64,000 bases of DNA from Gemmatimonadales bacterium (GCA_036265815.1 DATAOI010000028.1:1-64000), one strand, 5' to 3'. Shown: positions 38,375 to 64,000, numbered from the stretch's first letter. Made by a program: numbers and translations. Notes: a model not told the origin generated them from the sequence alone.

Positions 38375-39622
38375 ATGAGGATTCTTTTGTCGGCGTACGC
38401 CTGCGCCCCACATGTTGGAAGTGAGCCTGGCATCGGCTGGGGCGTCGCCTTGGAGCTGGCCAAGCGGCACACCGTGTGGGTGCTAACTCGGGCGAACAAC
38501 CGTCCTGAGCACGAGCGGGCGTTCAGCGAGACTCCCAGGCCGATGAACCTTCACTTCATCTACTACGACCTGCCCGGCTGGCTGTCGTTCTGGAAGAGAG
38601 GGGCACGCGGCTGGCGACTGTATTACTGGTTATGGCAATTGGGCTCCGTTCGGACAGTCCGCCGGCTGCTACGCAGTGAAGAGATCGACCTGTGCCAGCA
38701 CATCACCATCGGCATGGACTACATGCCCTCGGGGCTGGCATTGATCCACAAGCCTTTCTTGTGGGGACCCGTGGGGAGCGAGAACATCCATCCAGACATT
38801 CACAGCTCTCTCCCACTTGGCGAGCGGATGGGTGAGTGGCGTCGTATTCTTTTGCGTTTTCTGGCCCGTTACTGTGATCCCTTCGTCTGGCTGACGCGCG
38901 CGCGCGCAGACCTCATCTTGTGCTTTACCTCCACTGAAAGTCGGGCCCGGTCCTTCTATTTACGTTCGGCACCCAAGGTGATTCCCGTCGTTCAGACCGG
39001 CCTGGAGATCGGTACTGGCAGAGCTCCGGCGGAGCCCGCGGCTCCCCCTCAGCCCTTTACGGTCGTTTTTGCAGGCCGCCTGGTACACTGGAAAGGCGCC
39101 CTGCTGGCCGCTGAGGCGTTCGCAGTGTTCGCGTCCAGGGTCAAAGGCGCACGTCTTCTTGTGATCGGCGAGGGCCCGCTGAGGGGGGCCATGGAGCAAA
39201 CGTTTCGGACTGCCGCGGTGGAGGATCGTGTCGAATTTACTGGCACTGTGCCTCCCGAGATTCTCATGCAGCGTCTCCGCACCAGCGACGTGTTCCTGTA
39301 CCCGGCTTTTCGTCACGGGTTGGCCACCGTTTGTCTCCAGGCCATGGCCTCGGGGCTGCCTGTTGTTTGCCTTCGCGATGGTCCCATCGGGGAGGCGGTG
39401 GGGTCGGAGTGCGGCGTGACCATTCCGGTGACTGCCCCGGAGCTTCCTGCTGCGCTGGGGGCCGCGCTGGCCCTGCTGCACGACGACCCCGAACATCGAG
39501 CCCGCCTTGCACAGAACGCAATCGCTCGGATCCAGCGGGACTACAGCTACCAGGCAGTTGTGCAACGGTGGGAGCCGCTCTATGAGAAGGTGGTGATGAA
39601 ACCACTCGGGTCGACGGCGTGA
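38375..39622 (+). CDS. GT4-family glycosyltransferase
   Basis: The 415-residue protein has a Rossmann-type N-terminal domain (LLSAYACAPHVGSEPGIGWG, the glycine turn) and a GT4 C-terminal donor-binding domain (VVFAGRLVHWKGALLAAEAF, GEGPLRGAMEQTF, RHGLATVCLQAMASGLPVVCL). The usual donor-contact Glu of the E-x7-E motif is in part replaced: the first position is His in RHGLATV. It transfers a sugar in glycan assembly in the cytoplasm; donor unknown. The next gene starts inside its stop (GTGA). Confidence 0.9.
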   Translation: MRILLSAYACAPHVGSEPGIGWGVALELAKRHTVWVLTRANNRPEHERAFSETPRPMNLHFIYYDLPGWLSFWKRGARGWRLYYWLWQLGSVRTVRRLLRSEEIDLCQHITIGMDYMPSGLALIHKPFLWGPVGSENIHPDIHSSLPLGERMGEWRRILLRFLARYCDPFVWLTRARADLILCFTSTESRARSFYLRSAPKVIPVVQTGLEIGTGRAPAEPAAPPQPFTVVFAGRLVHWKGALLAAEAFAVFASRVKGARLLVIGEGPLRGAMEQTFRTAAVEDRVEFTGTVPPEILMQRLRTSDVFLYPAFRHGLATVCLQAMASGLPVVCLRDGPIGEAVGSECGVTIPVTAPELPAALGAALALLHDDPEHRARLAQNAIARIQRDYSYQAVVQRWEPLYEKVVMKPLGSTA

Positions 39623-40626
39623 TCCACCCGCCGGCCCCGCGCGTATCCGTCTGTATCTGTGCCTTCAACGCGGCACGCTTTCTGGACGCGGCACTGGCAA
39701 GTGCTGCTCAGCAGACCTACCGCAACCTGGAAATCCTCGTGATCGACGATGGGTCCTCCGACGAAACGGCGGCCGTCGCGACCCGTTGGTCGGAGACCGA
39801 CTCCCGAGTTCGGCTGCTCCACTTTGCCGAGAACCGGGGCATCGCGTACGCCCGCCAGACCGCGTTAGAGGCCGCCACCGGTGACTGGGTCGTCTTTTTG
39901 GATGCCGATGACGTCGCTCTGCCTGAGATGATTGAACGGCAGATGACCATGGCGCAGAATGACTCCTCGATCGCCGTCGTGGGTGTGGCTGCGATACTGA
40001 CGGGGCCTCGTGGACCCTCGGAGCCGATCGGCGTGCGGCGTGTCGGACCTTCCAGCAAGGACCACTTCCGGCAATTGGTCGAGAACTCCAAACTCGTGTT
40101 CATGGAGACTCCCGCGCTGATGTCGCGCCAGGTAGCCATCGAGGCCGGCGGGCTTCGGCTGTTTGCTTCGGAGCGTGATGCCACTGTGCACATGCGGGAC
40201 TTCGCCGAAGACCTCGATCTCTGGTGTCGCATATCTGATGTCGGTCGGCAGGGACGGTTCATGATCGCGCTGCCGGAGCCCTTGGTGTACATCCGCAAGA
40301 CGGCTGGCTCCCTCTCCTCGGTCAACTCCAGATTGATGGCCATGAAGATGGCCTGGATCAAGGACTGTCTGCGTCGCCGGCGCCAGGGCCGCCCCGAGTT
40401 GCAATACGACGACTTCGAACGGTCCATGACACGAGTGCAGTGGTTGCGATTCCAGTGGAAGGCTTTCGCCGCCCAACAATGGCGAGAGCTGGGTTCGGCC
40501 TACATGGAGCGGAAGTGGGTGGAGGCTGCCTGGCGATTGTTCCTGCTACTCCTGGTCAATCCACGTCGCTTGATACGGGGCCGAGTCCAGCGCATCCAAC
40601 AGCCAGCGAAGGTCGAGGACTCGTGA
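39619..40626 (+). CDS. GT2-family glycosyltransferase
   Basis: The 335-residue inverting GT-A enzyme starts PRVSVCICAFNAARFLDAAL, has VIDDGSSDETAAVATRW and the metal-binding DxD as FLDADDVALPEM, and a catalytic region with AEDLDLWCRI, the ED acid pair. It adds a sugar from a nucleotide donor to a lipid-linked glycan. GTG start overlaps the upstream GT4, and its own stop overlaps the flippase start, so three genes form a tightly coupled set. Confidence 0.93.
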   Translation: MIHPPAPRVSVCICAFNAARFLDAALASAAQQTYRNLEILVIDDGSSDETAAVATRWSETDSRVRLLHFAENRGIAYARQTALEAATGDWVVFLDADDVALPEMIERQMTMAQNDSSIAVVGVAAILTGPRGPSEPIGVRRVGPSSKDHFRQLVENSKLVFMETPALMSRQVAIEAGGLRLFASERDATVHMRDFAEDLDLWCRISDVGRQGRFMIALPEPLVYIRKTAGSLSSVNSRLMAMKMAWIKDCLRRRRQGRPELQYDDFERSMTRVQWLRFQWKAFAAQQWRELGSAYMERKWVEAAWRLFLLLLVNPRRLIRGRVQRIQQPAKVEDS

Positions 40627-41993
40627 GGAATGTGCAGGATGTGCTGATCCGCGCCCAGCCGGACTGGGTGAGGCGCTGGGTCGCGAAGGCATCATGGGCC
40701 GTGGCCGACCAGGCGTTTTTCGCGCTGTCGCAGTTCGCGATGAGCATCATGCTGGCACGGTGGCTCACGCCGCCGGAGTACGGCGCCTATGCAATGGTGT
40801 ACGGCGTGTTCCTCTTCATTGCCAGTCTGCACACCTCCCTCCTGACCGAGCCAATGCTGGTTTTCGCCAAGACCCGCTTTTCCCATGATTTCCAGCACTA
40901 TTTGAGCGCGCTGCGGCGGGCGCATCTGACGCTCACCGGTGTCGCGGGAGCATGCCTGCTCCTGGGAGCCGTCTTGGCGCGTGGTCAGACCGGCACGCCG
41001 GCAGCGCTCGGGCTGGCGGCGCTGGCGGCCGCGCAGCCGCTCATCCTGTTGGCATGGCTCTACCGCCGGGCATGCTACGTCCATGGTCACCCGGCCATGG
41101 CCGCGAGCGGAGGGTTGCTGCACCTCATCATCGTGGTCGCCGGAGTCATCCTGTTGGAAGCCTTGGGTGCGCTGTCCGTGCCCGGAGCGTTCTTGGTGTT
41201 CGGTGGTGCTGGCCTGGGCGCGTCTCTCTGGCTCGCCTGGCGCCTGAAGCGCGAGGACCTTACCGGGAACGAGCGTCGACCGCTGGTCCGGCGTGAAGTG
41301 CTCGTGGCGCACTGGAACTACGGGCGATGGTCCGTGATGACGGGGCTTATCAGCTGGGCATCGTACAATCTCTACTTTTTCTTGCTCCCGGCCTTCGTAG
41401 GCTTGTCAGCAACCGGTGCCTTCAAGGCTTTCCTCAACCTCGTGATGCCCGCTACACACGCCATTGCGGCCCTCTCGCTGCTGCTGTTGCCCATGCTCTC
41501 GAGAGAGACCGAGCGTGAGCCCTTCCAGCGGCAGATGGTCCGCGCGCTTGCCGTTTTCCTCGCCGGCTGCACATTATATGGCCTGATCGCTGGAATATTC
41601 TGGCACCCGATACTACGGCTCCTCTATGGGAGCGGCTACGTCTCCTACACCAGGTATCTGGGAACGCCGCAGCTCGTCTGGCTGATCGCGTTCCTTCCGG
41701 TTGGCGCGGCCTGTGTGTCGGTCTTGGGCAGTGCCCTCCGTGCAGTGGAACGCCCGGACCGAGTCTTCGGAGCGTATATCTTCTCCGGGATTGTGGGGAC
41801 CCTTCTAGGGATTGCGACGGTCGCTCGTTTGGGTCTGGAAGGCGCGATCATCGGGACAGCCCTGTACACCTGCGCCACCTCATTGGCACTGTATTGGCAT
41901 CTGCGCCGCGAGCTCGCGCAGTGGGGCCCGCAGTCGCGACGGGCTCCGGTAATGCCGATCGCCTCAGCGCAGAGTCCGACCGCGAGAGAATAG
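40623..41993 (+). CDS. Polysaccharide flippase (Wzx/MATE-like, MOP superfamily)
   Basis: From GTG 40623 the 456-residue protein has about 12-14 hydrophobic segments. Typical opening is WAVADQAFFALSQFAMSIML and PPEYGAYAMVYGVFLF, and the MOP-superfamily pattern continues with FLLPAFVGLSATGAFKAF. It should translocate lipid-linked repeat units across the inner membrane. An upstream frame to 40440 runs inside the GT2 gene and is a shadow. A GT2 stop and flippase start overlap (GTGA). Confidence 0.9.
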   Translation: MRNVQDVLIRAQPDWVRRWVAKASWAVADQAFFALSQFAMSIMLARWLTPPEYGAYAMVYGVFLFIASLHTSLLTEPMLVFAKTRFSHDFQHYLSALRRAHLTLTGVAGACLLLGAVLARGQTGTPAALGLAALAAAQPLILLAWLYRRACYVHGHPAMAASGGLLHLIIVVAGVILLEALGALSVPGAFLVFGGAGLGASLWLAWRLKREDLTGNERRPLVRREVLVAHWNYGRWSVMTGLISWASYNLYFFLLPAFVGLSATGAFKAFLNLVMPATHAIAALSLLLLPMLSRETEREPFQRQMVRALAVFLAGCTLYGLIAGIFWHPILRLLYGSGYVSYTRYLGTPQLVWLIAFLPVGAACVSVLGSALRAVERPDRVFGAYIFSGIVGTLLGIATVARLGLEGAIIGTALYTCATSLALYWHLRRELAQWGPQSRRAPVMPIASAQSPTARE

Positions 41994-42062
41994 CTTCTGA
42001 CGAACTGCGGCCCGGTCACCTCCTGGCCGGTGCCGCCGAAGCTCCCTCCTTCACACGATTTC

Positions 42063-42866
42063 ATGAATCTCGAGCAAAACCTGCCGCAGCTTGATCCGGC
42101 ACCATGGCTCCCGCTGCTCCGGCGACTGACCCAGATGTCTTCCTCGTGGTGCGTGTGGAAGAATGTGGATCGCGCGCTTGCCGGCTTCGGGGACATCGAC
42201 TCAGCTTCCATCCCCGCAGATCGGGAGAGGCTGCTCCGTGAGTTTCGCGAGTGGGCCTCGAGCCACGACATGGGACCGATCTTTGTCTGCCATCACTTGC
42301 CCGGCTCCGTCCTGGGGATCGCGGTGCGAGCCCGGGCGGAGCTGATCGAGCTGCAGCTGTGCGAGCAAGCGTTTTTTCGCGGCGCGGTGCTCTTCGCGGC
42401 CCATGACCTCGCACCACTGATGGAGATGGATGAAAGAGGGTTTCGGCGGCTGCGTCCGGGCTCCGAGGGTCTCCTGCTGCTGTTCTACAACTCGATGAAG
42501 CGGGGCGGTCGCCCATTGGTGGAAGGAGACAAGGCTGCACGCCCCCTCGACTTGATGAAGCGTGACCCGAAAGGCGTGGAGCTGGCAGCTCGGCTCTTCG
42601 GCTCGGTTCGGGCCCAGGCCCTGAGGGTCGCCAGCTGTGCCATGGAGGGCCGATGGGATCGGGGATCGGCCCTCCGGGTGGAGCTGTGGGCCATGGGACG
42701 GGGTCCGTTGAATCCAGTTCTGTTGGCCGCTCGACTGAAGCTCCGAGCCATGAATCTCGGGGTCTGTCCCCTGCTCCCGGTACTCAGTCGCGGCCGAAGG
42801 CTGCAGGGGAATGTCGACGAGTATCTTCGCAGCGTTGCGCGCACTCACGAGCCCATCGGCCCCTGA
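42063..42866 (+). CDS. Nucleotidyltransferase-like hypothetical protein of polysaccharide clusters
   Basis: From ATG 42063 the protein is 267 residues. It contains WCVWKNVDRALAGFGDIDSA near the N-terminus, with GDID reminiscent of the GDxD-type acidic pair of small nucleotidyltransferases, and DERGFRRLRPGSEGLLLLF further on. I recall similar proteins near dTMP-kinase-like genes in exopolysaccharide loci, but the nucleotidyltransferase call is weak. No signal peptide or membrane helix. GTG 42030 is an alternative start. It follows the flippase by 69 nt. Confidence 0.45.
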   Translation: MNLEQNLPQLDPAPWLPLLRRLTQMSSSWCVWKNVDRALAGFGDIDSASIPADRERLLREFREWASSHDMGPIFVCHHLPGSVLGIAVRARAELIELQLCEQAFFRGAVLFAAHDLAPLMEMDERGFRRLRPGSEGLLLLFYNSMKRGGRPLVEGDKAARPLDLMKRDPKGVELAARLFGSVRAQALRVASCAMEGRWDRGSALRVELWAMGRGPLNPVLLAARLKLRAMNLGVCPLLPVLSRGRRLQGNVDEYLRSVARTHEPIGP

Positions 42867-42941: not shown

Positions 42942-43802
42942 CTATGATTCTGCGGCTGGCAGCCGGGTCAGCGTGCACACGAGCACCTCCGGATCCGCGA
43001 ACCAGCGGAGCGGCAGCACAACACAACCCAGGCCGACGCTGACGATGAGTGTGCGATCCGAGCCGAGGTCGAAGCGACCGCGCGCGTACCGGCGGGACAA
43101 GGGGCCATGGGGAACCACGATTGGGATGCCGCTTGGCAGCGCGAGTTGACCGCCATGCGTGTGTCCGCACAGGGCGAGATCGAAGCGCTCGTCACCCAGG
43201 TCGAGCAGACCCGACGGCGAGTGCATCAGGATGACGCGAATACCCTCCGCGCCGGCGACTGCGGCAGCGGAGTCGGGACTTCCGCACCAATGATCGTCGA
43301 TCCCACAGATCCATACTTGACTGAACGGTGGCCGCAGCTGCACGCTCCGATTGGTCAGCACGGTGATGCCGGCTGCCTCGAGCTGGCGAACAATGTAGCT
43401 GGCGTCAGCCCACCAATCGTGATTGCCCAGGACCGCAAAGCGGCCGAAGGGCGCGGGAACAGCTCCGAGGGCAGGCGCCAGCCAGTCGATTTCGGAGCGG
43501 ACGTGGGTGACGAAGTCTCCTCCAAGGAGCAGAACGTCTGGAGCGAGGCGGGCCAACTCTCCGCACGCGGTGCGGAGAACGCTCGAGTCGGTCGTGGGGC
43601 CGGCATGAAAGTCTGAGGCATAGGCCAGCCGAAGCGGTGGCATCGGCGTAGACCCGCCATGGACCGACACCGCGTGAGAAATCGTCCGGACGGGCGGGTG
43701 GATCCCGAGTGCGCGAACCAGGCGAACCGGCCAGCCTCCGCCGTACAACATGGCCTCGAGGCGGCTCACCCCGTAGGCAATCCCGGACCGTTCTCGTCTC
43801 AT
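42942..43802 (-). CDS. Metallophosphoesterase (YkuE/calcineurin-like)
   Basis: From ATG 43802 the 286-residue protein has the five metallophosphoesterase motifs: ASDFHAG, LLLGGDFVTH, GNHDWW, LMHSPSG and GHTHGGQL, with all metal-binding Asp, Asn and His residues in place. The HAG of motif I and the wide N-terminal leader (about 1-60, LEAMLYGGGWPVRLVRALG) resemble YkuE-type membrane-proximal phosphodiesterases, some of which act on UDP-diacylglucosamine or phospholipid headgroups. Convergent with the preceding hypothetical gene. Confidence 0.85.
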   Translation of the reverse strand: MRRERSGIAYGVSRLEAMLYGGGWPVRLVRALGIHPPVRTISHAVSVHGGSTPMPPLRLAYASDFHAGPTTDSSVLRTACGELARLAPDVLLLGGDFVTHVRSEIDWLAPALGAVPAPFGRFAVLGNHDWWADASYIVRQLEAAGITVLTNRSVQLRPPFSQVWICGIDDHWCGSPDSAAAVAGAEGIRVILMHSPSGLLDLGDERFDLALCGHTHGGQLALPSGIPIVVPHGPLSRRYARGRFDLGSDRTLIVSVGLGCVVLPLRWFADPEVLVCTLTRLPAAES

Positions 43803-44234
43803 TCTCTCGGCAGTCTGAACGCAGGCGGGAGCAACAGGCACCCCTGAGGAGGTTTTGGGCGCAGCCACGCGGCCCTCTCGAAGGTACACGGCCACCTAGA
43901 GTCCCGAAACCTCCGCCCGGCACCTCGAATTGCCTCGGAACGGATTTTGCGCGACCGTCACATTCAATCCTCGCATCGGGCAAGAAGTGCCAGAGACGTG
44001 AAGCTGCTCCGCGTCTCGGCGGGCCCAATTATTCGGTCTTGCATAGTCACGGAATCGATCCAGATTTGATCAGTCGACTCACGTCGTTCTTTCCTACGCT
44101 TGCTCGCCCGACCTGCTTCTACGGGATGTTCAGTCAAGGGGTCCCAGGCAGCGCCGCCGGTCTCGATCCTACCGGGTTGTGCGGATCGCCCAGAAAAAAC
44201 GATTCGGCAAATTGCCTATAAGACATTATGTGTT
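43803..44234. other. Divergent intergenic region with a -10-like box
   Basis: Divergent between the phosphoesterase and the deacetylase-GT2 fusion. The 3' part (44,190-44,235) is A+T-rich and contains TATAAG (44217-44222), 12 nt before ATG 44235. No convincing -35 box is present at 17 nt. An in-frame longer start at 44100 for the fusion is possible but would cross this segment. Nothing else seen. Confidence 0.3.
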
Positions 44235-46091
44235 ATGGAGTTAGCGCGTGACCAGAGCTCCAAAATCTTTTCGTCGGTGAGTTCGGCACCCATGCCGTTT
44301 GCCACCCAAGTCGGACCAGGTGGCGGCTCGGACGAGGTCCGGAGCCGCCACGGCACTGAGCCGGCGACGGGCACTCACGTCCTGACCGTAGCCCTCGAAG
44401 ACTATTTTCACGTCACCCCGCTGGAAGCCGTCGTCACCCAAGAGCGCTGGTACCGGTTCGAGATGCGCCTGGAAGCCAGCACCCGGCGCACCCTCGATCT
44501 ACTGGAGGAATGTGGGGCTCGCGCCACATTTTTTGTGCTGGGTTGGGTCGCCGATGCCGCACCCGAGCTTGTACGTGAAGTGGTGAATCGGGGTCACGAG
44601 GTTGCCAGCAAGGGGTACTATCATCGGGACATACGGGGGCTCGGACGGGAAGCCTTCCGGGAAGACGTCCTGCGGGCCCGGGAGGCCATCGAGCGAGCGA
44701 GCGGTCGCCGGGTCCTCGGATATCGACTGCCGCAGCAGTGGCTGCGTCCTGCCGATCTCTGGATGCTGGAGGTCCTTGCGGAGACCGGTCATTTGTACGA
44801 CTCCAGCGTCCGCCTGGTGTTCCGCACCTACGCCGCGGAGCCGTGGCGGCAGTTCCCCCACCGCCCAATGGTCAGGGGCCGGCCCTTTCTCGAAGTACCC
44901 CTCTCATCGATTCGCGTCTGTGGGCTGCACCTTCCCATTGCGGGGGGAAACTACTTCCGGCAGTTTCCCGATCGGCTGATGCGTCGTGCCGTCCGCTATT
45001 GGGACCGGCACTATTCCTCGCCGTACGTCATGTACTTCCATACCTGGGAGATGGATCCTGACCAGCCCCGGATCAAGGGCGTGTCGCTCCCGCAGCAGAT
45101 CCGCCAGTACCGCAATCTGGCCAAGATGCAGGCCACAGTTCGCCACTATCTGGAGAGCTATCGATTCACCAGCATCGCCGACTTTTTCGGGCTGGCTGAT
45201 GCCAGCGGCCCGGACGCCGGGTTGAGCCGGACACGGGAGCCAGCCGGTACACCAACCAGCACTCTCCATCCGGAACAGACGTCCACGGCCGCTCCGCTGA
45301 CGGCCGTCAGCATCGTGGTGCCCTGTTATAACGAAGAGCAGTCGCTTCGCTACCTCGCCAACACACTCGGGAGCGTCCGGCGCCGTCTGGACGAGAGATA
45401 CCAGACCACCTTCATCTTTGTGGATGACGGGAGCACCGACGCTACCTGGCAGACACTCCACACGGTCTTTGGCGCATGGCCGAATTGCGAGTTCGCCCGA
45501 CATCCCGGCAACCGCGGCGTGGCCCAGGCGATTCTCACGGGTATTGCGCGGGCGCCATCCGAGGTGGTCTGCTCCATAGACTGCGACTGTACCTATGACC
45601 CGCATGAACTGGAGCACATGATTCCGCTCCTTGGACCCGGGATCGACGTCGTCACCGCCTCGCCCTACCATCCGGCCGGTCGGGTGAAGAACGTGCCCCA
45701 GGGGCGTCTATTCCTTTCAAAGTCCCTCTCACGTCTCTACCGGGTGCTGCTGCGTCAGCGCATTCACACGTATACCAGCTGCTTCCGGGTGTACCGGCGC
45801 AGTGCAGCCCTGCACCTCCCACTTCATCGAGGGGGATTTCTGGGCATCGCTGAGCTGCTGGGCCGGCTGGATCTGAGCGGTTCGACCATCGCTGAGTATC
45901 CGACAACTCTGGAGTCGCGAATCCTTGGCCGGTCGAAGATGAAGGTCGCGAGGACCATCGTCGGCCATCTCGGGCTCTTGCTGGAGCTCGCGGTCGTGCG
46001 ACTTCGGACCCAGCGTGGCCAGCACTCGTCTGCAGACGCAGCGGCTTCCGACACATCGGCGTCCGACGCTCATGCCGGTGCACAGCCGTGA
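44235..46091 (+). CDS. Polysaccharide deacetylase (NodB/DUF3473-like) fused to a GT2 glycosyltransferase
   Basis: The 618-residue protein has an N-terminal NodB-type domain (about 45-325: LTVALEDYFHV, ARATFFVLGWVADAAPELVRE, VMYFHTWEMDP) and a C-terminal GT2 domain (about 355-600: AVSIVVPCYNEEQSLRYLAN, FVDDGSTDATWQTL, the DxD as SIDCDCTYDP). Standard NodB residues are altered: the first Asp of TxDvED is Ala (VALEDY) and the first metal His of HGYSH is Lys (ASKGYYH). A deacetylase role is therefore uncertain. The FAD-oxidoreductase start overlaps its stop. Confidence 0.88.
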   Translation: MELARDQSSKIFSSVSSAPMPFATQVGPGGGSDEVRSRHGTEPATGTHVLTVALEDYFHVTPLEAVVTQERWYRFEMRLEASTRRTLDLLEECGARATFFVLGWVADAAPELVREVVNRGHEVASKGYYHRDIRGLGREAFREDVLRAREAIERASGRRVLGYRLPQQWLRPADLWMLEVLAETGHLYDSSVRLVFRTYAAEPWRQFPHRPMVRGRPFLEVPLSSIRVCGLHLPIAGGNYFRQFPDRLMRRAVRYWDRHYSSPYVMYFHTWEMDPDQPRIKGVSLPQQIRQYRNLAKMQATVRHYLESYRFTSIADFFGLADASGPDAGLSRTREPAGTPTSTLHPEQTSTAAPLTAVSIVVPCYNEEQSLRYLANTLGSVRRRLDERYQTTFIFVDDGSTDATWQTLHTVFGAWPNCEFARHPGNRGVAQAILTGIARAPSEVVCSIDCDCTYDPHELEHMIPLLGPGIDVVTASPYHPAGRVKNVPQGRLFLSKSLSRLYRVLLRQRIHTYTSCFRVYRRSAALHLPLHRGGFLGIAELLGRLDLSGSTIAEYPTTLESRILGRSKMKVARTIVGHLGLLLELAVVRLRTQRGQHSSADAAASDTSASDAHAGAQP

Positions 46092-47443
46092 ACGGCTGCA
46101 AGGTCGCAATCGTCGGTGGAGGCATTCTGGGATTGGAGCTCGCCGCCCGGCTGAGCGCCGACGGATGCGCCGTCACCGTGTTCGAGGGCGCCTCGCAATC
46201 AGGTGGTCTCGCCGCGCCGGCTCCGATTGGGACCTACACCTGGGATCGGTTCTATCATGTCATTCTGGGCTCGGATTCGTACCTGCAGGCCTTCCTGAAT
46301 GACCTCGGGCTCTCGCACCAGCTTCGGTGGGGCACGACACGCACCGGTTTTTATGTGGACGGACGCCTGTACTCGATGTCGTCTACCCTCGAGTTCCTCC
46401 GCTTTCCTCCGCTATCTCTGGTGGACAAGGCTCGGCTTGCCGCGACCATCTGGCATGCGTCCGGGATCAAGAACTGGAAACCGCTCGAATCCCTGCTGGC
46501 CACGGAATGGCTGCGGACGTGGTCCGGGCAACGGACGGTCGATCGCATCTGGCTGCCGCTCCTGCGAGCAAAGCTGGGGGACAATTATCGCCGGGCAAGC
46601 GCCGCCTTCATCGGGGCGATCATCACGCGAATGTACGCGGCCAGGCGGTCAGGCATGAAGCGCGAAGTGTTCGGCTACGTCGAGGGCGGGTACGCAACCG
46701 TCTTGCGCGCCTGCGAGGACCGGCTTCGGCGACTGGGCGTAGAGCTACGGGCCGGCCGTGCGGTGACGGGAATACGCAGCCGTCCTGATGGCGTAACCCT
46801 CGATTTCGCCGGCGGCCCGTCCGAAGAGGTCGACCGGGTAGTCTTGACCATTCCGTGCAGCCGCATCGCCGATCTTTGCCCGCAGCTCACCGCGGCGGAG
46901 CAGACCCGACTGCGCCGGGTGACCTATCAAGGCATCATCTGCGCGTCATTCCTGTGCCGGCAGCCACTGGCAGGCTACTACGTCACCAACATCACTGACT
47001 CCTGGGTGCCATTCACCGCGGTCATCGAAACAACATCCCTGGTCGACCGGGCCACCTTCGGAGGCAACAACCTGGTCTATCTCCCGCGGTATGTGACCCA
47101 GGATGACCCGTTCTGGAACAAGAGCGACGCCGAGATCCAGCGGGAGTTCCTCGCTGCGCTCCAGCGCATGTATCCCCGGTTCAGCTCGACGGATGTGATC
47201 GCTTTTCAAATCGCGCGCGTGCGGGAGATGTTGGCGGTGTCCACACTCGGCTACTCGGATGAGGTGTTGCCACCGGTGCGCACTTCGCTCGACAATGTGT
47301 TCATCGTCAATTCGGCTCAGATCGCCCACGGGACGTTGAACGTGAACGAGACGCTGGCGCTCGCGGTGACGAAGAGTGCGGAGTTGAGTCCCTATCTGCG
47401 CCCGGCTTTGCCACGGGTGTCAGCGGCCGGGGTCGCATGCTGA
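46088..47443 (+). CDS. FAD-dependent amine-oxidase-like oxidoreductase
   Basis: The 451-residue protein starts with the dinucleotide-binding fold CKVAIVGGGILGLELAARLS and ends with NSAQIAHGTLNVNETLALA, the FAD-binding C-terminal strand of the amine-oxidase/protoporphyrinogen-oxidase superfamily. UDP-galactopyranose-mutase-like enzymes share this fold and are frequent in glycan clusters. The substrate is unknown; a sugar or lipid carrier is possible. GTG start overlaps the fusion gene (GTGA), and it overlaps the next gene by 7 nt. Confidence 0.88.
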   Translation: MNGCKVAIVGGGILGLELAARLSADGCAVTVFEGASQSGGLAAPAPIGTYTWDRFYHVILGSDSYLQAFLNDLGLSHQLRWGTTRTGFYVDGRLYSMSSTLEFLRFPPLSLVDKARLAATIWHASGIKNWKPLESLLATEWLRTWSGQRTVDRIWLPLLRAKLGDNYRRASAAFIGAIITRMYAARRSGMKREVFGYVEGGYATVLRACEDRLRRLGVELRAGRAVTGIRSRPDGVTLDFAGGPSEEVDRVVLTIPCSRIADLCPQLTAAEQTRLRRVTYQGIICASFLCRQPLAGYYVTNITDSWVPFTAVIETTSLVDRATFGGNNLVYLPRYVTQDDPFWNKSDAEIQREFLAALQRMYPRFSSTDVIAFQIARVREMLAVSTLGYSDEVLPPVRTSLDNVFIVNSAQIAHGTLNVNETLALAVTKSAELSPYLRPALPRVSAAGVAC

Positions 47444-55651: not shown

Positions 55652-57469
55652 ATGAACTACACATTCAAGCTGTCGCGACGCCTGTCAATGCTCCGTATTG
55701 CCGGCATGTTCCCCGCGTTGCTTTTAGCTTGGGCCTGCACTGACACCGATCCGACCGGGACGGGCGATTCCAGCCCGGGGGTACCAGTCGCCGTCGAGTC
55801 GACTTTCAAAGTCGGCGGGCAAGGTCGAGGCCACGGCAAACCCATCTCGACACCGACGGTCATCCTCACTGTGTCGCCAGATACAGCGACACTCCTGCCG
55901 GGAGCGCAGCGCACGTTTGTCGCCGCCCTCCGGCTGAGCGACGGCACCCCAACCAACGACAGCATTCGGTGGACCGCCTCGGGCGGTACCATCGACGCCG
56001 GCGGTCTATTTACCGCCGGCAAGACCAGCGGCAAGTATCGGGTCTCCGCCGTCGCCGCCACCAGCGGCGCGGGAGATAGTGCCGCGGTTGATATCGTTCC
56101 ACCGACGCCGGTGCTGCAGCGCGTCCTGATAAGCCCGGCAAGCGTCTCCCTGCAATCCGAGGCCACACAGCAGTTCCTGGCGAGCGGAGTAGCGACGGAC
56201 GGATCTACCGTCCCGGTGGCGGTCTCCTGGGCAGCGACGGGTGGCACCATCAGCAGCTCGGGTCTCTACACCGCGGGATCGGCCTCCGGCAATTTCCGCG
56301 TGGTGGGGCGGGATAGCGCCTCCGGGCTAGCCGACACGTCCCTCGTAAGCGTCACCGCGCCCGCGCCGCCACCCCCGCCCAGCGGGTTCGACACTACGGG
56401 CTGGGTCGTGCTCCACCCTGGTGATGATCTGCGGGCCGAGGTCTCTGCCAAGCCTGCCGGGACCCGCTTCTACTTCCGCGCAGGTACCTATCGCCAGCAA
56501 GGCACCTCGGTCAAGGACAACATGGTATTCCGCGGCGAGCCGGGCGCGATCCTGGACGGCGAAAACGTCGCACCCTACGCATTCGAGACCCTGACTTCCA
56601 TACCCAAAGCGGTCCGCATCACTGGGCTGGTCATCGAGCACTACAATCCGCCGCACCAGCAGAGCGCGATCCAGGGCGATAATGGGCAGGGCTGGACCGT
56701 GGATTCCAATGAGATCGCCTATAATGGTCAGCATGGCGTCCGATTGGGCGTGAATTGGATGCTCCGGGGGAACCACGTCCACCACAACGGGACGGTCGGA
56801 ATAACCTGCTACAAGTGCGCTGGCGCGCAGGTGATCGGAAACGAAGTGGATCACAACCCGGCGACCACGATCACTGAGACCGGCGCTCTTGCCGAGGCGG
56901 CAAACATCAAGCTCCTGATCGTCACCAATGGCCTGGTCGTGCGGCGAAACTACGTTCACGACGGTCTCAATAAAGGCATCTGGCTGGACACCGACAACCA
57001 GAATTATGTCGTGGACTCCAACACGGTCAGCAATCACGGACAGGCCGGCATCTGGATCGAGGCCAGCCTCGCTGGGGTGGTTCGCGGCAACACGGTCACT
57101 ACGTGCGGCACTCGAGGGAATAGTTGGCTCGATGGCGCCGGTATCCAGGTGACCAACTCCGGTGGCGTTGAGATCGCGAGGAACACAGTGAGTGGCTGTG
57201 CGAACGGGATCACCGGGATGTACGTCTATGCCACCAGCGGGAATTACGCCAAGGCACTCCAGAACCTTTGGGTGCATGACAACAATGTGACCATGACCAA
57301 GGGCGTGACCGGGGTCGGCACTTCGGGCACAACGTCGACGGCGGTCTGGGACAGTCAGAACAATCGATTCGTCAACAATACCTATCAGCTGACGCCCACG
57401 GCTCCCTTCCGTTGGCGGCTTAACGCGACGCTCACGCAAGCACAGTGGCAGGCGGCCGGACAGGACTGA
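55652..57469 (+). CDS. Right-handed beta-helix lipoprotein with N-terminal Ig-like domains
   Basis: The 605-residue protein has a lipoprotein signal (LLLAWAC, Cys at about 29), two Ig-like/BIG-type repeats (about 70-145 and 150-235: VILTVSPDTATLLPGAQRTF, VLISPASVSLQSEATQQF), a proline-rich linker, and a C-terminal beta-helix (about 255-585) with recurring NxVxxN-type coils (NHVHHNG, NYVHDG, NNVTM). Parallel beta-helix proteins are often polysaccharide lyases, epimerases or adhesins. No catalytic residues are identifiable. A paralogue follows at 57864. Confidence 0.85.
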   Translation: MNYTFKLSRRLSMLRIAGMFPALLLAWACTDTDPTGTGDSSPGVPVAVESTFKVGGQGRGHGKPISTPTVILTVSPDTATLLPGAQRTFVAALRLSDGTPTNDSIRWTASGGTIDAGGLFTAGKTSGKYRVSAVAATSGAGDSAAVDIVPPTPVLQRVLISPASVSLQSEATQQFLASGVATDGSTVPVAVSWAATGGTISSSGLYTAGSASGNFRVVGRDSASGLADTSLVSVTAPAPPPPPSGFDTTGWVVLHPGDDLRAEVSAKPAGTRFYFRAGTYRQQGTSVKDNMVFRGEPGAILDGENVAPYAFETLTSIPKAVRITGLVIEHYNPPHQQSAIQGDNGQGWTVDSNEIAYNGQHGVRLGVNWMLRGNHVHHNGTVGITCYKCAGAQVIGNEVDHNPATTITETGALAEAANIKLLIVTNGLVVRRNYVHDGLNKGIWLDTDNQNYVVDSNTVSNHGQAGIWIEASLAGVVRGNTVTTCGTRGNSWLDGAGIQVTNSGGVEIARNTVSGCANGITGMYVYATSGNYAKALQNLWVHDNNVTMTKGVTGVGTSGTTSTAVWDSQNNRFVNNTYQLTPTAPFRWRLNATLTQAQWQAAGQD

Positions 57470-57608: not shown

Positions 57609-57863
57609 CTGACCCGTCGCGAGCTCTGAAAACGAGATTGCGCTCTCCCGGGCGCCGTTCCATCGCGATCTGCCGACACCTCCTAGTCGCCAGCTAACTC
57701 CCGGTACACCTAAATCGAGCCTCCCGCCCTTCAGCGGGAACCACGTGCCGCCTTGCGTCACGTTTGCTCGGCCTGCGGCCGCAGGCTCTGCCATGCGGCC
57801 CAGTGCTCCGGGCCGTGCCACGGGCGTGCTCAACTCCGTACCCGGAAAGGGACTCCTACGTCC

Positions 57864-59156
57864 GTGCCCAACCGCCACTCAGTAACCCAGCGGCTGCCCA
57901 TCATCGCCGCCCGACTCCGTGATCGATTGCTGGCGACTGTCATCGCCGCTGGTCTCCTCGGCGCCTGCGCCGAGCCACTCGACCCAATCACCCGCGACGA
58001 GACCAATTCAAGTGCCCCGGCGACTTCTGACCCGAGTCAACTCCTGTCCACCACTGATGGGGTCCCCATCTATCCTGGACAGAGCATTCAGTCAGCGGTG
58101 AACGCCAGACCGGCTGGCACCAAGTTCACCATCAAGGCGGGAACGCATCACCGGCAGAGGGTCGTGCCAAAGGATTATGACAAATTCGTAGGCGAGCCAG
58201 GCGCGATCCTGGATGGCGACAAAATCACCTATTATGCATTCGAGACCCTGCGGAGTGCACCCAGGGGTGTCGTCATCCAAGGCCTCATCATTCAGAACTA
58301 CGCGACCAGCGACGCGGGGCAGGCCGTCATACAGGGCGATAACGCTATCAACTGGACGGTCGAGGCCAACGAGATCCGGTACAACACCCGGACGGGTCTG
58401 CATACCGGGGATGGGATGAAGGTCCTCCGCAACAAGATTCATCACAACGGATTGTCGGGTATTAACGGCTACCGGTCGGACAACGTTCTCGTAGAAGGCA
58501 ACGAGGTTTCCTACAATAACGCCTCAAATTCGACGTCCACCCCTTCGCTAAGCTCCATGGCCGGCATGAAATTTCTGCAGGGGCAGAACCTCACAGTCCG
58601 GAACAACAACGTGCATGATAACACGGGCAAGGGGATCTGGACTGATCACATGTATCTGAACACCCTGATCGAGGGCAACCAGGTCACGGCCAACCGCGAT
58701 GCCGGCATCTGGCACGAGGCCAGCTACAGCGCAATCATCCGGAATAATCTCTGCCAGAAGAATGGTGCGGCGGGCAGTGGCTGGCTGGCGAACTCTGGGA
58801 TCCAGGTCTCCAATTCCCCGAACGTCGAGATCTACGGCAACACTGTCGCATACAACGGCAACGGCATCGGTGTGATGTACGCGTCCGGATACCCCACTAC
58901 GGGACCATACGGCGCGCTCATCGTACAGAATTTGTACGTGCACGACAATACGGTGAAGATGTCCAGTGGAAGGACCGGACTGGTCACCAATACCGGCGAC
59001 AAATCCATCTACACCAGCCGAAACAACCGGTTCGTGCACAACACTTACTATCTCGGCTCGAGCACGACCACGTACTTCACCTGGAACGAAGTCAACAGGA
59101 CCCCTGCCCAGTGGCGGGGGATTCCGGAGGATGCCACCGGCACGTTCAATTACTGA
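57864..59156 (+). CDS. Right-handed beta-helix lipoprotein, paralogue of the upstream gene
   Basis: From GTG 57864 the 430-residue protein has a lipoprotein signal (AAGLLGAC, Cys at about 34) and a beta-helix without the Ig-like repeats. Aligned with its neighbour, the shared blocks are GEPGAILDGDKITYYAFETL, VIQGDNAINWTVEANEIRYN and GIWHEASYSAIIRNN. The two are tandem duplicates, one with Ig-like repeats. An upstream frame to 57753 lacks signal features. Its stop overlaps the convergent GT4 gene by 7 nt. Enzymatic role unknown. Confidence 0.85.
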   Translation: MPNRHSVTQRLPIIAARLRDRLLATVIAAGLLGACAEPLDPITRDETNSSAPATSDPSQLLSTTDGVPIYPGQSIQSAVNARPAGTKFTIKAGTHHRQRVVPKDYDKFVGEPGAILDGDKITYYAFETLRSAPRGVVIQGLIIQNYATSDAGQAVIQGDNAINWTVEANEIRYNTRTGLHTGDGMKVLRNKIHHNGLSGINGYRSDNVLVEGNEVSYNNASNSTSTPSLSSMAGMKFLQGQNLTVRNNNVHDNTGKGIWTDHMYLNTLIEGNQVTANRDAGIWHEASYSAIIRNNLCQKNGAAGSGWLANSGIQVSNSPNVEIYGNTVAYNGNGIGVMYASGYPTTGPYGALIVQNLYVHDNTVKMSSGRTGLVTNTGDKSIYTSRNNRFVHNTYYLGSSTTTYFTWNEVNRTPAQWRGIPEDATGTFNY

Positions 59157-60364
59157 CCGGCCGGAAGCCCAAGGACTGCTGCGAACTTCTCTCGCAGCAG
59201 CCCTCGGGCATGGCTCCCGTCGAGGTTGGATGTGGTCGTCAGCGATGGCTGGCGGACGAAACGCTTCATGGCATCGCCGATTCGGCGGGCGGTCTCCTCG
59301 ACATTCCCAGGCTCGATTATCTCCATACGGCTCATGTCCTTGGCAGTCTCCGCCAGGACTCGTGCTCCGCCATGGCCGAGCACGATGACCGGTACGCCTC
59401 CCGCCATGGCCTCAGCGAGTGCGATCCCGCCTTCCTCCCGTAGGCCTGTGAAAACTGCGGCGGCGGCACGAGCCAGCAAATTCATTACTTCCGAGCGGGG
59501 CAACGCCCCTCGTAGCTCCAGCCGGTCTGCCACCCCCAGACGGCGAGCCAGACGAAGCAAAGCACCGCGTTCGGGCCCGTTACCTACCATCACAAGTCTC
59601 ACGTCCTCCGGAGCGTGTGCGAGTGCACGCACAGCCAGGCGGGGACCCTTCCTGGACTCAAGGGCGCCGACGTAAAGGCAATGGTTCCCAGGTGCATTCC
59701 GTGGTACCGTGGGCACCTCGAGCAACAGGCCATGGTTCAGGATGGCTGCCCGAGAGCGAGTGGACGCCGGCAAGCGAGCGAGAGTGGCCTCGTTTTGGAT
59801 GAGGCACACGGATGCCCGTTGCCAAGTGCGCCGAGTCGCCGGGAGCCAACTCATCATGCGTACACTCACTCTGTCGAGGATTTCGTCCCACACTCCACGC
59901 CACCCGAGCAGCGGCCAGAGCCGCAAGGGAGTGGTGACTGCACCCCCAACCGGACCCCACACGCTGGGCACGTCATAGTCGGTGGCCGGTGAGGGGAGCC
60001 AGTAGGTGGAATAGCTGACGTGGCAAACCGCGTCGAATGGCTGCTCCCTGTGCAACTGTCGCCCTATTTGGTTCGCGCTGTGGAGCCATCGCAGGTAAAG
60101 CAAGAACCAGGTCACTCGATGGCCCTTGGCCAGCAATCCCCAGCGGGGCTCGCCGACCTCTATGAACTGCAGCCCCGCACGATTAGCGGACGCTTGCCAC
60201 TGCCGGATACCGTCGGTGTGCTCCGGACCTACCAACACGGTGCAGTCGGCGAGCTCGGAGAGCTCCCGCACCATGCCCCAGCCGGCACCGGGCTCCGAGC
60301 CACGCCCCGGTTCACAGGCATAGGCGAAGATCAGAATTCTTGGGGCGCTTGAAGGCCAGGTCAT
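59150..60364 (-). CDS. GT4-family glycosyltransferase
   Basis: The 404-residue protein has the GT4 fold: N-terminal RILIFAYACEPGRGSEPGAGWG and C-terminal CLYVGALESRKGPRLAVRAL, VMVGNGPERGALLRL, and the donor loop GLREEGGIALAEAMAGGVPVIVLG with its Glu residues intact. It probably transfers a sugar to the growing chain; donor not assignable. It is the last gene of a minus-strand set (dTMP-kinase-like, APH-like, GT4) with 14-nt and 4-nt junctions, and converges with the beta-helix gene. Confidence 0.93.
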   Translation of the reverse strand: MTWPSSAPRILIFAYACEPGRGSEPGAGWGMVRELSELADCTVLVGPEHTDGIRQWQASANRAGLQFIEVGEPRWGLLAKGHRVTWFLLYLRWLHSANQIGRQLHREQPFDAVCHVSYSTYWLPSPATDYDVPSVWGPVGGAVTTPLRLWPLLGWRGVWDEILDRVSVRMMSWLPATRRTWQRASVCLIQNEATLARLPASTRSRAAILNHGLLLEVPTVPRNAPGNHCLYVGALESRKGPRLAVRALAHAPEDVRLVMVGNGPERGALLRLARRLGVADRLELRGALPRSEVMNLLARAAAAVFTGLREEGGIALAEAMAGGVPVIVLGHGGARVLAETAKDMSRMEIIEPGNVEETARRIGDAMKRFVRQPSLTTTSNLDGSHARGLLREKFAAVLGLPAGQ

Positions 60365-60378: not shown

Positions 60379-61296
60379 CTATGTCGAGCGATCGCGGGCG
60401 ACACTGCGCTGCTCTAACGCCGCCGCAAGGCCGCGCGCCAGTCGTAAATCACGGGCATTGCTCGGCCGCTGGTTGATCCGTTCACGCCAGAAACGCATCG
60501 CCTCCGGACTCCCCCGTACCTCTCTCGCGCTGTTACTTAGTGCAGCAGCAGTGGCACGGTAGAATACCTCGTCCGCACCAGCCGGGCCCCACCCCGCAAA
60601 TTCCCAGTCGATCAAGAAAAGTGCTCCGCCGCGCATCTGCCGAAGATTCCAGGGCGCGAAGTCTCCATGCATTGGCCGCCATCCCGGCGCGATCCCATGC
60701 GGCTTCGGGCAGCCGGCTAGCGCGAGTTCCACCTCCCCAAGGATCTGCCCAAGCGGCGGGTGCGAGGGCACGCGGTGTAGTTGGGCGGGCAGCGGGGTAA
60801 CGGCGAGGTATTGCCACCCCTTCACGACACCTGATCCCAAAGGAGTCGGTACTCGAAAGGTACGGGGGTGATAGTCCGCGAGTACCCGGAGCGCACGTTC
60901 CTCATTGGTCAGCGACTCGGAGTTGCCTTTCCGAACCTTGACGAATGCTCTGGGTACGCCCCGAGCCAGGAGAAGCAGTGCCAGCCCAGGTCTAGCCGCC
61001 TGCATTCGATTATAGCCGGCCAATGAGTCGAACGGTCCTACCAGATCCCGCAAGGTCTGCGAAAGTTCCTCCCAAGCCGCGTCGACGGGAGGGCTCCAGA
61101 CAACAGAGCGGCCGGGTAAGCTGGTAGGGCCGAGCAGTCGAATCCATAGCCATGCGGCTCGCTGAAGCCACATGGCCCGAGGGCGGCAAGCCGAGTACAG
61201 AGCGAGACCGGCAAGTGCGGCTTCACGAGAGGATAAAGGTATCTTGAGATGATCCCAGCCCGGCGGGAAGTCTTTGTAACGCATCGGGGTCGTCAT
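60379..61296 (-). CDS. APH/choline-kinase-like phosphotransferase
   Basis: The 305-residue protein has the APH-family catalytic loop WRPMHGDFAPWNLR (HGDxxxxN, catalytic Asp and metal Asn) and the metal motif LIDWEFAGWG, plus the lysine-type strand RAFVKVRKG. The N-terminal 110 residues are not conserved with known APH enzymes. It probably phosphorylates a small hydroxyl- or amino-bearing substrate, perhaps a sugar or choline-type headgroup. Its GTG/ATG start overlaps the dTMP-kinase-like stop (ATGA), so it belongs to the glycan operon rather than being a resistance gene. Confidence 0.85.
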   Translation of the reverse strand: MTTPMRYKDFPPGWDHLKIPLSSREAALAGLALYSACRPRAMWLQRAAWLWIRLLGPTSLPGRSVVWSPPVDAAWEELSQTLRDLVGPFDSLAGYNRMQAARPGLALLLLARGVPRAFVKVRKGNSESLTNEERALRVLADYHPRTFRVPTPLGSGVVKGWQYLAVTPLPAQLHRVPSHPPLGQILGEVELALAGCPKPHGIAPGWRPMHGDFAPWNLRQMRGGALFLIDWEFAGWGPAGADEVFYRATAAALSNSAREVRGSPEAMRFWRERINQRPSNARDLRLARGLAAALEQRSVARDRST

Positions 61297-61907
61297 AAAG
61301 CCTCAAGGATCCTGACCGCGATGCTGGCCGGATCCTCGGTCGCATCGAATGTCTTCATCGGGCAGTAGGGCAGTTGGGACCACGCCATCAATTCCCGAGA
61401 TATCTCGGCACGGGTCAGCTCCTGCTTCCTGGCGAGCACAACTTCCGAGGGAGCACTCAGGTTGACGACGAGATCCGGGCGTGGGAGAAGGCCGATCGCG
61501 GCAGTCGCAAGGGACGCCGGCCCATAAAAGCGGAGCGCCGCAGGCTGCACAACATAGCCGTACGCCCACCGGTCGGCGATCACAAGGCTCCCCCGTCGCA
61601 GTGCCGGCCGAATGGCAATCGCATACCCGATCCAACAGCGGCCCCAGTTGCGGATCAGGCGACACCAGCCAAGGACTCGTGAGCCAGTCGGATTTATCAC
61701 GGGACGCCGTGTTGCCTCATGCGCTGGCGGCTTTGTAAGGAGCTGCCTGCGAAGCGGTGGCATGAAGTGAAAGTACGCGGTGGGTCCCCCAAATGAGTTG
61801 GCCAGGGCCCTCGCCACGCTGGTTTTCCCCACGCCATCGGGTCCTACAAGGACGATGAATGCGCCCGAGTGGCCGCGGTGAGCGATAACTGAAGCAACCC
61901 GTATCAC
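61293..61907 (-). CDS. dTMP-kinase-like P-loop kinase
   Basis: The 204-residue protein has the P-loop VGPDGVGKTSVARALA (residues about 21-36), LVIADRWAYGY (the DR motif of thymidylate kinases) and a C-terminal LMAWSQLPYCPMKTFDATEDP. The usual lid and dTMP-contact residues are poorly conserved, so the substrate may not be dTMP. Similar proteins are seen in exopolysaccharide loci. GTG start. The following APH-like gene overlaps by 4 nt. Confidence 0.8.
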   Translation of the reverse strand: MIRVASVIAHRGHSGAFIVLVGPDGVGKTSVARALANSFGGPTAYFHFMPPLRRQLLTKPPAHEATRRPVINPTGSRVLGWCRLIRNWGRCWIGYAIAIRPALRRGSLVIADRWAYGYVVQPAALRFYGPASLATAAIGLLPRPDLVVNLSAPSEVVLARKQELTRAEISRELMAWSQLPYCPMKTFDATEDPASIAVRILEAL

Positions 61908-62144: not shown

Positions 62145-63296
62145 CTAAGCCATCCCAAGGACCCGCATGTACTCGCTAGCGATTCGAGCAGGGGCATAGT
62201 ATGCCCGTATGTCACGCACGTCGTCTTCCGTAGGAAGAAACAGGTCGCGCTTCTCAATGATTTCCAGCATCCGGCAGGCGAACTCCTCGACATCGAGCGG
62301 ATCGCTGACGTAGGTTGCCTTCCCAAGAGTCGTTTCTGGGAGGGCCGCGCATCTGGTCGTGAGCGTCGGAACCCCCATCCCGAGGGCCTCCACGGTGGGC
62401 ATGCCGAAACCTTCGAACATTGATGGCAGCACGAAGAGATCCGCGCCGCGATAAAGGGAGCCCAGAACGTCATCCGGCACGTGGCCCAGAATCGCAATTC
62501 TGTCGCCTAAGTGGAGCTCCGCAATCAGCCCCGCTATATCATCTGCTGCTCCCCGCTTGATCCCCTGGAGGTTACCCCTCAGCTGTCCCGCGAGCACCAA
62601 ATTGTGTGGAATTCGATGCCGAAGTGAAGCAAATGCCCGTATAAGCGTTGCGAGATTCTTGTGGGGATAGTGTGATGCGACGGTGAGGATATAGGTAGAC
62701 GTTCGATCGTGGAGGGGCGACGCACGGGGTTCGCTCGAGGCCTCGAATCGCCCCCACGCGATTGGATTGGGAATCACGCACAGCTTGGACTCGTAGGTAG
62801 CTCCGTAAGCGTTCAACACGTCGTCCCGCACGAACTCGGAGATCGCGATTACATAATCGGCTGATCGTAGTGTCAAGCGGTGCGCGAAATTAAGCCATAG
62901 CCGCTTCCGCCGGGAGAAGTTGTCGGGCAGATGTCTGTACTGGATGTCGTGGATGATGGTGGCGGTTCTCACGCTGGGAAGCTTTGGAGGGGTGTAGTAA
63001 TTGGCGAACAACATCGATGCGAGCCCCCGCCGGTAGGCCGCTAGAGGAACATTGATGGACTCCTTGACGAATCGATTCCCGCGACCCTGGACTTCCACCA
63101 AAGACAGGCCCAGCCGATCGCGCAGGCTCTCCAACCGGCGCTGGAACACGGGATCGAGCTCCCCTACGCTTTGGACGAACAGCGTGGTGCCCCAGGCCTC
63201 GGGATGCTGCGCTAAGCCTTCCAGGAGGTTGTAGAGCATGTACTCGGCGCCGCCCACCCGACCGGTACGGATGAATAGTCCGCTCACGCCTAGCAT
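62145..63296 (-). CDS. GT4-family glycosyltransferase
   Basis: From ATG 63296 the 383-residue protein has LFIRTGRVGGAEYMLYNLLEG at the N-terminus and ILTVASHYPHKNLATLIRAF, LAGQLRG, GHVPDDVLGSLYRGADLFVLP and PSMFEGFGMPTVEALGMGVPTLT, a complete GT4 donor site with the two Glu residues. A longer start at 63398 adds 34 unstructured residues. It stands 111 nt after the ligase-like gene and ends 237 nt before the kinase operon. Confidence 0.9.
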   Translation of the reverse strand: MLGVSGLFIRTGRVGGAEYMLYNLLEGLAQHPEAWGTTLFVQSVGELDPVFQRRLESLRDRLGLSLVEVQGRGNRFVKESINVPLAAYRRGLASMLFANYYTPPKLPSVRTATIIHDIQYRHLPDNFSRRKRLWLNFAHRLTLRSADYVIAISEFVRDDVLNAYGATYESKLCVIPNPIAWGRFEASSEPRASPLHDRTSTYILTVASHYPHKNLATLIRAFASLRHRIPHNLVLAGQLRGNLQGIKRGAADDIAGLIAELHLGDRIAILGHVPDDVLGSLYRGADLFVLPSMFEGFGMPTVEALGMGVPTLTTRCAALPETTLGKATYVSDPLDVEEFACRMLEIIEKRDLFLPTEDDVRDIRAYYAPARIASEYMRVLGMA

Positions 63297-63407
63297 ACGC
63301 AACTGCCTTGACCAAGCCCTCCCCCCCCAAGTTGGCCCTTGCGCATCGGTCCTCGCTCCCGGTTTCGCCTCCCAGTTCCGATCCTCAGAGATCGGCAACC
63401 GGGACGA

Positions 63408-64000
63408 TCACCGCAGGAACTGCGGAGTGTAAGTTCGCCCCGCCGATCGAACACTTGGCCGCTGTGGATCGGTCGCCACGGCCGGTGCTCGCGTCTGGTT
63501 TGCAATAAGGATGCAGACCAGAAGCAGCAGCAGGTCGAACCCCGGTGCGGCGGCAAAGCTTTCGAATGTGACCGAGTTGACCGTCAGGTACACAGCGGCC
63601 GAGAAGGCGCTCGCCTGGCACCATACCGCCTCTCGTGAGAGCCCCTCTATCGGCCGGCAGGTGACCACGAGACAGTACACCAACGAGCCCCACAGCAGCA
63701 CCGCGCCCAGCACTCCCAGGTCGAGGAGAGTCTGCAAGAGTGCGTTGTGGGCATAAGAGGCCCAGGGTACCGCCGCCAATAGGGCAGCGCGCGACCCCTG
63801 GAAGCCAACGCCCAAAACCGGATGCTTGACCAGGAGGGGCCATGCCGCTCGCCAGACGTCGGTTCGCCCGGAAAAGCCCTCCAGATCTCGGACGGATTGG
63901 CCTCGCAATATGAGCTCGGCGACCCGAGGGTCGGTACTCGCGATCCGGGTAAGCAGATCGGCCATGGTTTCGCCCTTGGAAGCAAACAGCACCAGGAGCG
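63408..64000 (-). CDS. O-antigen ligase/Wzy-like protein, 5' truncated by window
   Basis: The open frame runs past base 64000, so only the C-terminal about 197 residues are visible. The segment GFSGRTDVWRAAWPLLVKHPVLGVGFQG, split here across motif positions, with YAHNALLQTLLDLG is the hallmark loop of the O-antigen ligase/polymerase family, followed by two or three membrane helices. It should ligate or polymerise lipid-linked glycan on the periplasmic side. Transcription continues toward the GT4 gene at 62145. Confidence 0.85.
   Translation of the reverse strand, partial: LLVLFASKGETMADLLTRIASTDPRVAELILRGQSVRDLEGFSGRTDVWRAAWPLLVKHPVLGVGFQGSRAALLAAVPWASYAHNALLQTLLDLGVLGAVLLWGSLVYCLVVTCRPIEGLSREAVWCQASAFSAAVYLTVNSVTFESFAAAPGFDLLLLLVCILIANQTRAPAVATDPQRPSVRSAGRTYTPQFLR

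Follow-up and report, generated by a model that had tools for sequence, protein, structure and literature searches.

Among the closest described counterparts of the enzymes considered here is lic1-type phosphocholine decoration, which comprises the choline kinase LicA, the cytidylyltransferase LicC, and the transferase LicD. Another kinase known from a glycan assembly locus is WbdD, a kinase-methyltransferase with a coiled coil and a protein-kinase-like fold that is encoded in loci for ABC-exported O antigens. The way in which bacteria encounter hosts, phages, and surfaces depends on their surface glycans, and both immune systems and phages recognise phosphate-containing groups carried by these. 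The window, by which we mean the whole analysed stretch of 64,000 nucleotides (it opens a 110.7-kb contig of a draft genome of 4.59 Mb), resembles lic1 in having a choline-kinase-like protein of the APH type and a predicted pol-beta-fold protein (NT) in a surface-glycan locus; it differs in that the set includes an extra kinase resembling thymidylate kinase (Tmk-like), to which NT is fused in other loci. The kinases very probably belong to a dedicated surface-glycan module of APH, Tmk-like, and NT proteins plus a dedicated GT4, as argued by co-occurrence relative to EPS and tmk controls, collinearity with a sister locus (L089), and gene fusions. The best overall explanation, a tentative one whose chances we put not far short of even, is that this conserved glycan module transfers a phosphate group onto the glycan or its lipid carrier. 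Many phyla carry it under annotations such as "hypothetical protein", "thymidylate kinase", or "phosphotransferase", and a glycan-locus-specific module would let annotators predict a shared modification. We found no description of polysaccharide loci that encode Tmk-like, APH, or NT proteins in the open-access literature (an open-access-only search and hence weak evidence), nor any description of the module in open-access work on LicD and choline kinase; the kinase-NT module is apparently undescribed in the literature searched.

The surrounding cluster is of the Wzx/Wzy-dependent surface polysaccharide type, with flippase, polymerase/ligase, glycosyltransferase (GT), and Wzc/Wza co-polymerase and export genes. 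It extends beyond the window end, where Wzy, WecG, epimerases, Wzc, and Wza are encoded (names read partly by eye and partly from scans), and its portion inside the window also includes a flippase-like protein, a Wzy_C ligase/polymerase, FAD oxidoreductases and deacetylases (two of each), and several GTs. The G+C content falls from ~71% before 36 kb to 60-65% across the cluster (36000-64000); such a drop is a common feature of horizontally acquired glycan genes. The features are:

38375-39622, + strand: GT4, second copy of the module-linked subfamily (31-48% identity to the module-adjacent GT4 in >20 other loci)
39619-40626, + strand: GT2 glycosyltransferase (PF00535, 2.6e-36)
40623-41993, + strand: Wzx-type flippase (PF13440, weak; 39% identity to the L089 copy)
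42030-42866, + strand: NT, predicted pol-beta-like nucleotidyltransferase-fold protein, 278 aa, GDIDSAS, stand-alone (homology and predicted fold)
42942-43895, - strand: calcineurin-like metallophosphoesterase (PF00149, 2.5e-7; 32% identity to the L089 copy)
44100-46091, + strand: fusion of an XrtA-type polysaccharide deacetylase (DUF3473) and a GT2 (54% identity to L089)
46088-47443, + strand: FAD-dependent amine-oxidase-like enzyme, PRK07233 family (65% identity to L089)
47437-48426, + strand: polysaccharide deacetylase (PF01522; 59% identity to L089)
51812-51955, + strand: 47-aa small companion of the sulfatase-like enzyme (ORF only)
51983-53572, + strand: alkaline-phosphatase-superfamily (sulfatase-like) membrane enzyme (PF00884, 28.0 bits vs cut-off 25)
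59150-60364, - strand: GT4 of the module-travelling subfamily, AYACEPGRGSEPGAGW (Pfam and subfamily comparison)
60379-61296, - strand: 305-aa APH/choline-kinase-like kinase with intact HGDFAPWN and IDWE motifs (PF01636, 35.9 bits)
61293-61907, - strand: Tmk-like P-loop kinase, 204 aa, GTG start, window-type variant DRWAYGYVVQPAALRFYGP (motifs and homologues)
62145-63398, - strand: GT4 of a different subfamily (Pfam and subfamily comparison)
63408-63998, - strand: Wzy_C polymerase/ligase, C-terminal part, running past the window (PF04932, 6.4e-14; full ORF L010:409-1932)

A sequence-only reading had described the kinase pair as translationally coupled and running into a GT4, had labelled its members dTMP-kinase-like and APH/choline-kinase-like, and had placed a sulfatase-like membrane enzyme with a small companion, together with flippase, ligase-like, and oxidoreductase genes, in the same region. 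These descriptions agree with our results: the two ORFs share an ATGA overlap and the GT4 begins 14 bp past the APH stop, the APH-like protein passes the PF01636 cut-off (23.2 bits), the Tmk-like protein falls narrowly below that of Thymidylate_kin PF02223 (24.6 vs 27 bits), the 47-aa ORF lies just upstream of the sulfatase-like gene, and the remaining genes are all present by profile matches.

The window Tmk-like protein has a GPDGVGKT P-loop, DRW, and an ARKQELT lid, and is 43% identical to its homologue in Streptomyces NBC_01320 and 54% to that in L089. Its score for the NCBIfam dTMP kinase equivalog TIGR00041 (28.4 bits) is far under the cut-off of 83, as is that of the L048 homologue (34.3 bits); the L044 and L045 homologues narrowly exceed the PF02223 cut-off. 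The modelled Tmk domain of L048 matches S. aureus TMK with a Z of 19.2 (2.7 A, 173 aligned), and this model and the window motifs together predict a Tmk fold with P-loop and DR motif. The family thus shares P-loop, DR motif, and overall fold with dTMP kinase (PF02223/TIGR00041), but the window protein is below the family cut-offs, the conserved loop after DRY differs, and the genes have glycan genes, not housekeeping ones, as their neighbours. In the main family, this loop is conserved as DRYYxDxxVDPxRYR, from which the loop after DR in dTMP kinases differs. The window protein, which is without D116 and R123 of the family motif, has in its place the variant DRWxYxYxxQP; the same variant occurs in the Streptomyces and L089 proteins, which points to a subfamily rather than to random decay, and the window copies may accordingly act on another substrate than the main family does. 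If the Tmk-like protein were a paralogue of dTMP kinase that supplies dTDP-sugar synthesis, this would account for the Tmk fold, and rfbABCD is present in the Leisingera locus L043. Against such nucleotide supply, to which we give the slimmest of chances, stand the low equivalog score of L048 and the conserved loop unlike that of dTMP kinases, and it leaves NT and APH unexplained; just 3 of the 42 loci have RmlA close to the module, and on this ground a role in dTDP-sugar supply was rejected.

The invariant APH residues H209, D211, N216, D229, E231, and D241 are all present, giving the HxDxxxxN motif and the downstream Asp. Among solved structures, the best match to a profile of 18 APH homologues (alignment A6; an iterated profile drifted into membrane proteins and was set aside) is the bacterial choline kinase 4r77 (E 9e-8), and the single APH-like sequence gave no match to the PDB with phmmer. 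By profile similarity to 4r77 alone, the APH may be a LicA-type choline kinase, and its presence in one set with a predicted pol-beta-fold protein fits with phosphate chemistry. At E 0.01, none of 24 NT proteins matched LicD (PF04991). Among the best 25 of 63 neighbour families, no LicC-type gene was recurrent, NTP_transferase being matched by 1 of the 72 neighbour ORFs that had no other assignment. A lic1-like CDP-alcohol route is therefore without support, given the absence of a LicD match and of a recurrent LicC-type gene among the families listed.

Searching plasmids with tblastn located both kinases within one EPS locus of Streptomyces NBC_01320 and found that glycan loci of Leisingera, Legionella, and Agrobacterium encode a longer form of the Tmk-like protein, in each case close to an APH-like gene. 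What these long proteins have in addition at the N terminus is homologous to a gene that stands by itself in Streptomyces and to window ORF 42030-42866, that is, NT, which is 30-33% identical to Streptomyces L042:17612-18427. By these comparisons, NT is a third partner in the set beyond the two kinases first flagged, and its homologous domain is elsewhere usually fused to a Tmk-like protein. The window NT has no Pfam match. VIA-align matched its model (pLDDT 76.6) to MenT1 (8an5, Z 11.3, 3.6 A, 165 aligned), H. pylori 4ok0 (Z 10.9), and ANT(2'')-Ia (Z 8.5), Foldseek by itself gave no match at E<0.001, and there is remote profile similarity to NTP_transf_5 (PF14907; hhalign probability 45%, E 2e-4). 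On the VIA-align result, the DxD motif, and the PF14907 similarity, we predict a pol-beta nucleotidyltransferase core fold. All 24 homologues compared have the DxD motif, and nearly all a third Asp, in place of which the window copy has Gln. NT shares the predicted fold and the DxD motif with NTP_transf_5, MenT1, H. pylori JHP933, and ANT(2'')-Ia, but differs from NTP_transf_5 in that PF14907 matches only 1 of the 24 homologues, weakly, and not the window protein.

Fusions tie the partners to one another: NT is fused to the Tmk-like kinase in 36 of 64 loci and APH in 9 of 64. In single cases, a Tmk-like domain is fused to a priming sugar transferase (L054) and APH is apparently fused to a flippase-like protein (L057; N-terminal part read by eye). 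C-terminal extensions of Tmk-like proteins were also seen by eye to resemble a hexapeptide acetyltransferase and a GT11-type transferase (L056:10580-11095; L063:2384-3343). A regulatory role, in which parts of the assembly machine and not the glycan would be sensed, or modified through AMPylation or phosphorylation, by NT and the kinases, is suggested by the toxin-type nucleotidyltransferases MenT1 and MenT3 among the closest structural matches of NT. These matches are at fold level only, and the fusions to sugar-transfer enzymes and the coupling to GT4 better fit a biosynthetic role, making regulation very improbable. Somewhat less improbable is capping, in which the kinases would phosphorylate the non-reducing chain end and halt elongation; WbdD has this role in E. 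coli O8/O9a. Capping would suit an assembly-locus enzyme of APH/protein-kinase fold whose motifs are intact, as well as the flippase fusion in L057. WbdD, however, belongs to ABC-transporter systems that export O antigens, whereas the module loci carry Wzx, Wzy, and Wzc, and capping leaves NT and the Tmk-like kinase without a role. An anti-phage defence function was also rejected, the PADLOC matches being to the P-loop only (19-24 bits).

In a second genome from this order, the sister locus L089 is collinear with the window (identities: Tmk-like 54%, Wzx 39%, Wzy 34%, GT4 37%) and also keeps the deacetylase (59%), FAD enzyme (65%), deacetylase-GT2 fusion (54%), and metallophosphoesterase (32%), with a stand-alone NT and APH inside the same 20 kb. 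This collinearity supports the assignment of the window NT (42 kb) and the kinases (60-62 kb), 18 kb apart, to one cluster. A set that is partly decayed and without current function in this genome could explain the spread across 20 kb and two strands, the lost third Asp of NT, and the lost D116/R123 of the Tmk-like protein. Every frame is open, though, the P-loop and APH motifs are intact, and the DRWxYxYxxQP variant is common to the Streptomyces and L089 proteins; there is accordingly little likelihood of decay. The metallophosphoesterase is a further phosphate-handling enzyme kept in both loci. The deacetylase-GT2 fusion, FAD oxidoreductase, and second deacetylase (44100-48426) form a tightly overlapping trio with 54-65% identity in L089; its GT2 part weakly resembles polyprenyl-phosphate sugar transferases, and its deacetylase scores just below the XrtA-system cut-off. 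The fetched part of L089 contains no sulfatase-like enzyme, epimerase, methyltransferase, or second FAD enzyme. Between the window's sulfatase-like gene and the module lie a 515-aa membrane protein (53608-55155), which matches no Pfam family and for which the other loci examined yielded no homologue, and two right-handed beta-helix proteins (55652-57469 and 57753-59156), of which one carries an Ig-like domain; L051, L072, L076, and L079 have a beta-helix gene as well.

A single-sequence search of 298 same-phylum genomes returned canonical tmk only and no APH partner, so the kinase pair is rare in its own phylum; L089 surfaced in a later profile search. Viral contigs gave no match. Scanning genome contigs added at least 21 loci, many of them in metagenome bins, which by record titles belong to Binataceae, Nitrospiraceae, Alpha-, Beta-, and Deltaproteobacteria, Acidobacteriaceae, Sulfurimonas, Microthrix, Acidimicrobiales, Lentisphaeria, Verrucomicrobiales, Vampirovibrio, Prevotella, and Candidatus Brocadia. 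Profile searches matched 23 of 296 Actinomycetota genomes (E<=1e-15; the label derives from L054, Microthrix, the centre of that search) and 14 of 395 own-phylum genomes (E<=1e-12). The recurrence of the same partners in other genomes indicates that the kinase pairing is beyond chance.

Partner counts, which are approximate because they rely on home-made profiles and six-frame ORFs, separate Tmk-like loci from controls. Among 41 strong Tmk-like loci (E<1e-30), NT was present in 40, APH in 30 (undetected in 11, some on short contigs), and the window's GT4 subfamily in 23; in 40 EPS control loci without a Tmk-like gene, the corresponding counts are 0, 1, and 0. Wzc-anchored EPS loci of the own phylum, one of the two control sets, had none of the three (0/20 each). 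The Actinomycetota loci are an independent test, since only the two earlier locus sets supplied sequences for the NT and APH profiles: 14 strong loci outside profile building had NT in 14, APH in 10, and GT4 in 5, compared with 0, 1, and 0 of 20 phylum-matched, sugar-transferase-anchored EPS loci (p 7e-10, 7e-5, and 7e-3). The GT4 association bears on the second-best reading, that the module makes an unusual activated donor for GT4: APH would act as an anomeric sugar kinase (AmgK/NahK-like), NT and the Tmk-like kinase would yield a nucleotide- or diphosphate-activated sugar, and the final glycan would be phosphate-free. The APH family includes anomeric sugar kinases, and the GT4 subfamily is confined to the Tmk-like side of the comparison. 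It went undetected, however, in 18 of the 41 strong loci, the APH profile is nearest to choline kinases rather than sugar kinases, and we know of no pol-beta-fold enzymes that make NDP-sugars; we consider a special donor unlikely.

The sequence-only reading had named kinases occurring mostly outside glycan loci as the finding that would count against it. At least one glycan-assembly gene lies within ~10 kb in 33 of 38 profile-sampled Tmk-like loci and at least two in 27, while among 20 canonical tmk loci there was no such case (Fisher p 3e-11 and 8e-8, respectively), so the idea survives. Its candidate phosphoglycan pathway is supported in part: the two kinases form a conserved surface-glycan module with NT and a GT4, and the phosphate linkage itself is conjectural. 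The sulfatase-like enzyme, which it had included, falls outside the conserved set: it is present in the window only, among 42 loci, as well as being absent from the fetched part of L089, and was rejected as a member.

For the preferred reading, a module that transfers a phosphate group onto the glycan or its carrier, the observed basis is the family-wide conservation of catalytic motifs, together with the folds, the fusions, and the genetic association. The combination of a choline-kinase-like enzyme, an NMP-kinase-type kinase, and a pol-beta-fold protein suggests stepwise phosphorylation followed by phosphate-group transfer. In the cytosol, prior to flipping of the lipid-linked repeat unit, the APH-like kinase would phosphorylate a small alcohol or sugar, the Tmk-like kinase would then add a further phosphate or energise the product, the NT domain would move the phosphate-containing group onto the glycan or its lipid carrier, and GT4 might add the modified residue or act on it. 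A cytosolic, pre-flipping location is probable, given that no signal peptides were noticed by eye and that the fusions are to cytosolic-side enzymes. Transfer of a phosphate-containing group by the module, taken as a statement about chemistry, is possible at somewhat less than even chances. It is distinctly unlikely that NT, Tmk-like, APH, and GT4 constitute an undescribed pathway of about ten bacterial phyla in which, in place of the CDP-alcohol route, a pol-beta-fold transferase fed with a diphosphate-activated substrate by the Tmk-like kinase attaches a phosphate-containing group to lipid-linked glycans. As a small set of apparently soluble enzymes, the module is directly assayable.

Weaker Tmk-like matches (E 1e-12 to 1e-28) are mostly near glycosyltransferases and mostly without APH; they are other subfamilies. 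The own-phylum loci L091-L098 and L101 encode a second Tmk-like subfamily of ~265 aa with the motifs SGLDGAGKSTLI, DRYFYDTLVDV, and RKGEYSV, in GT-rich surroundings without APH or a fused NT, and some of these loci also carry another Tmk-like protein of ~534 aa.
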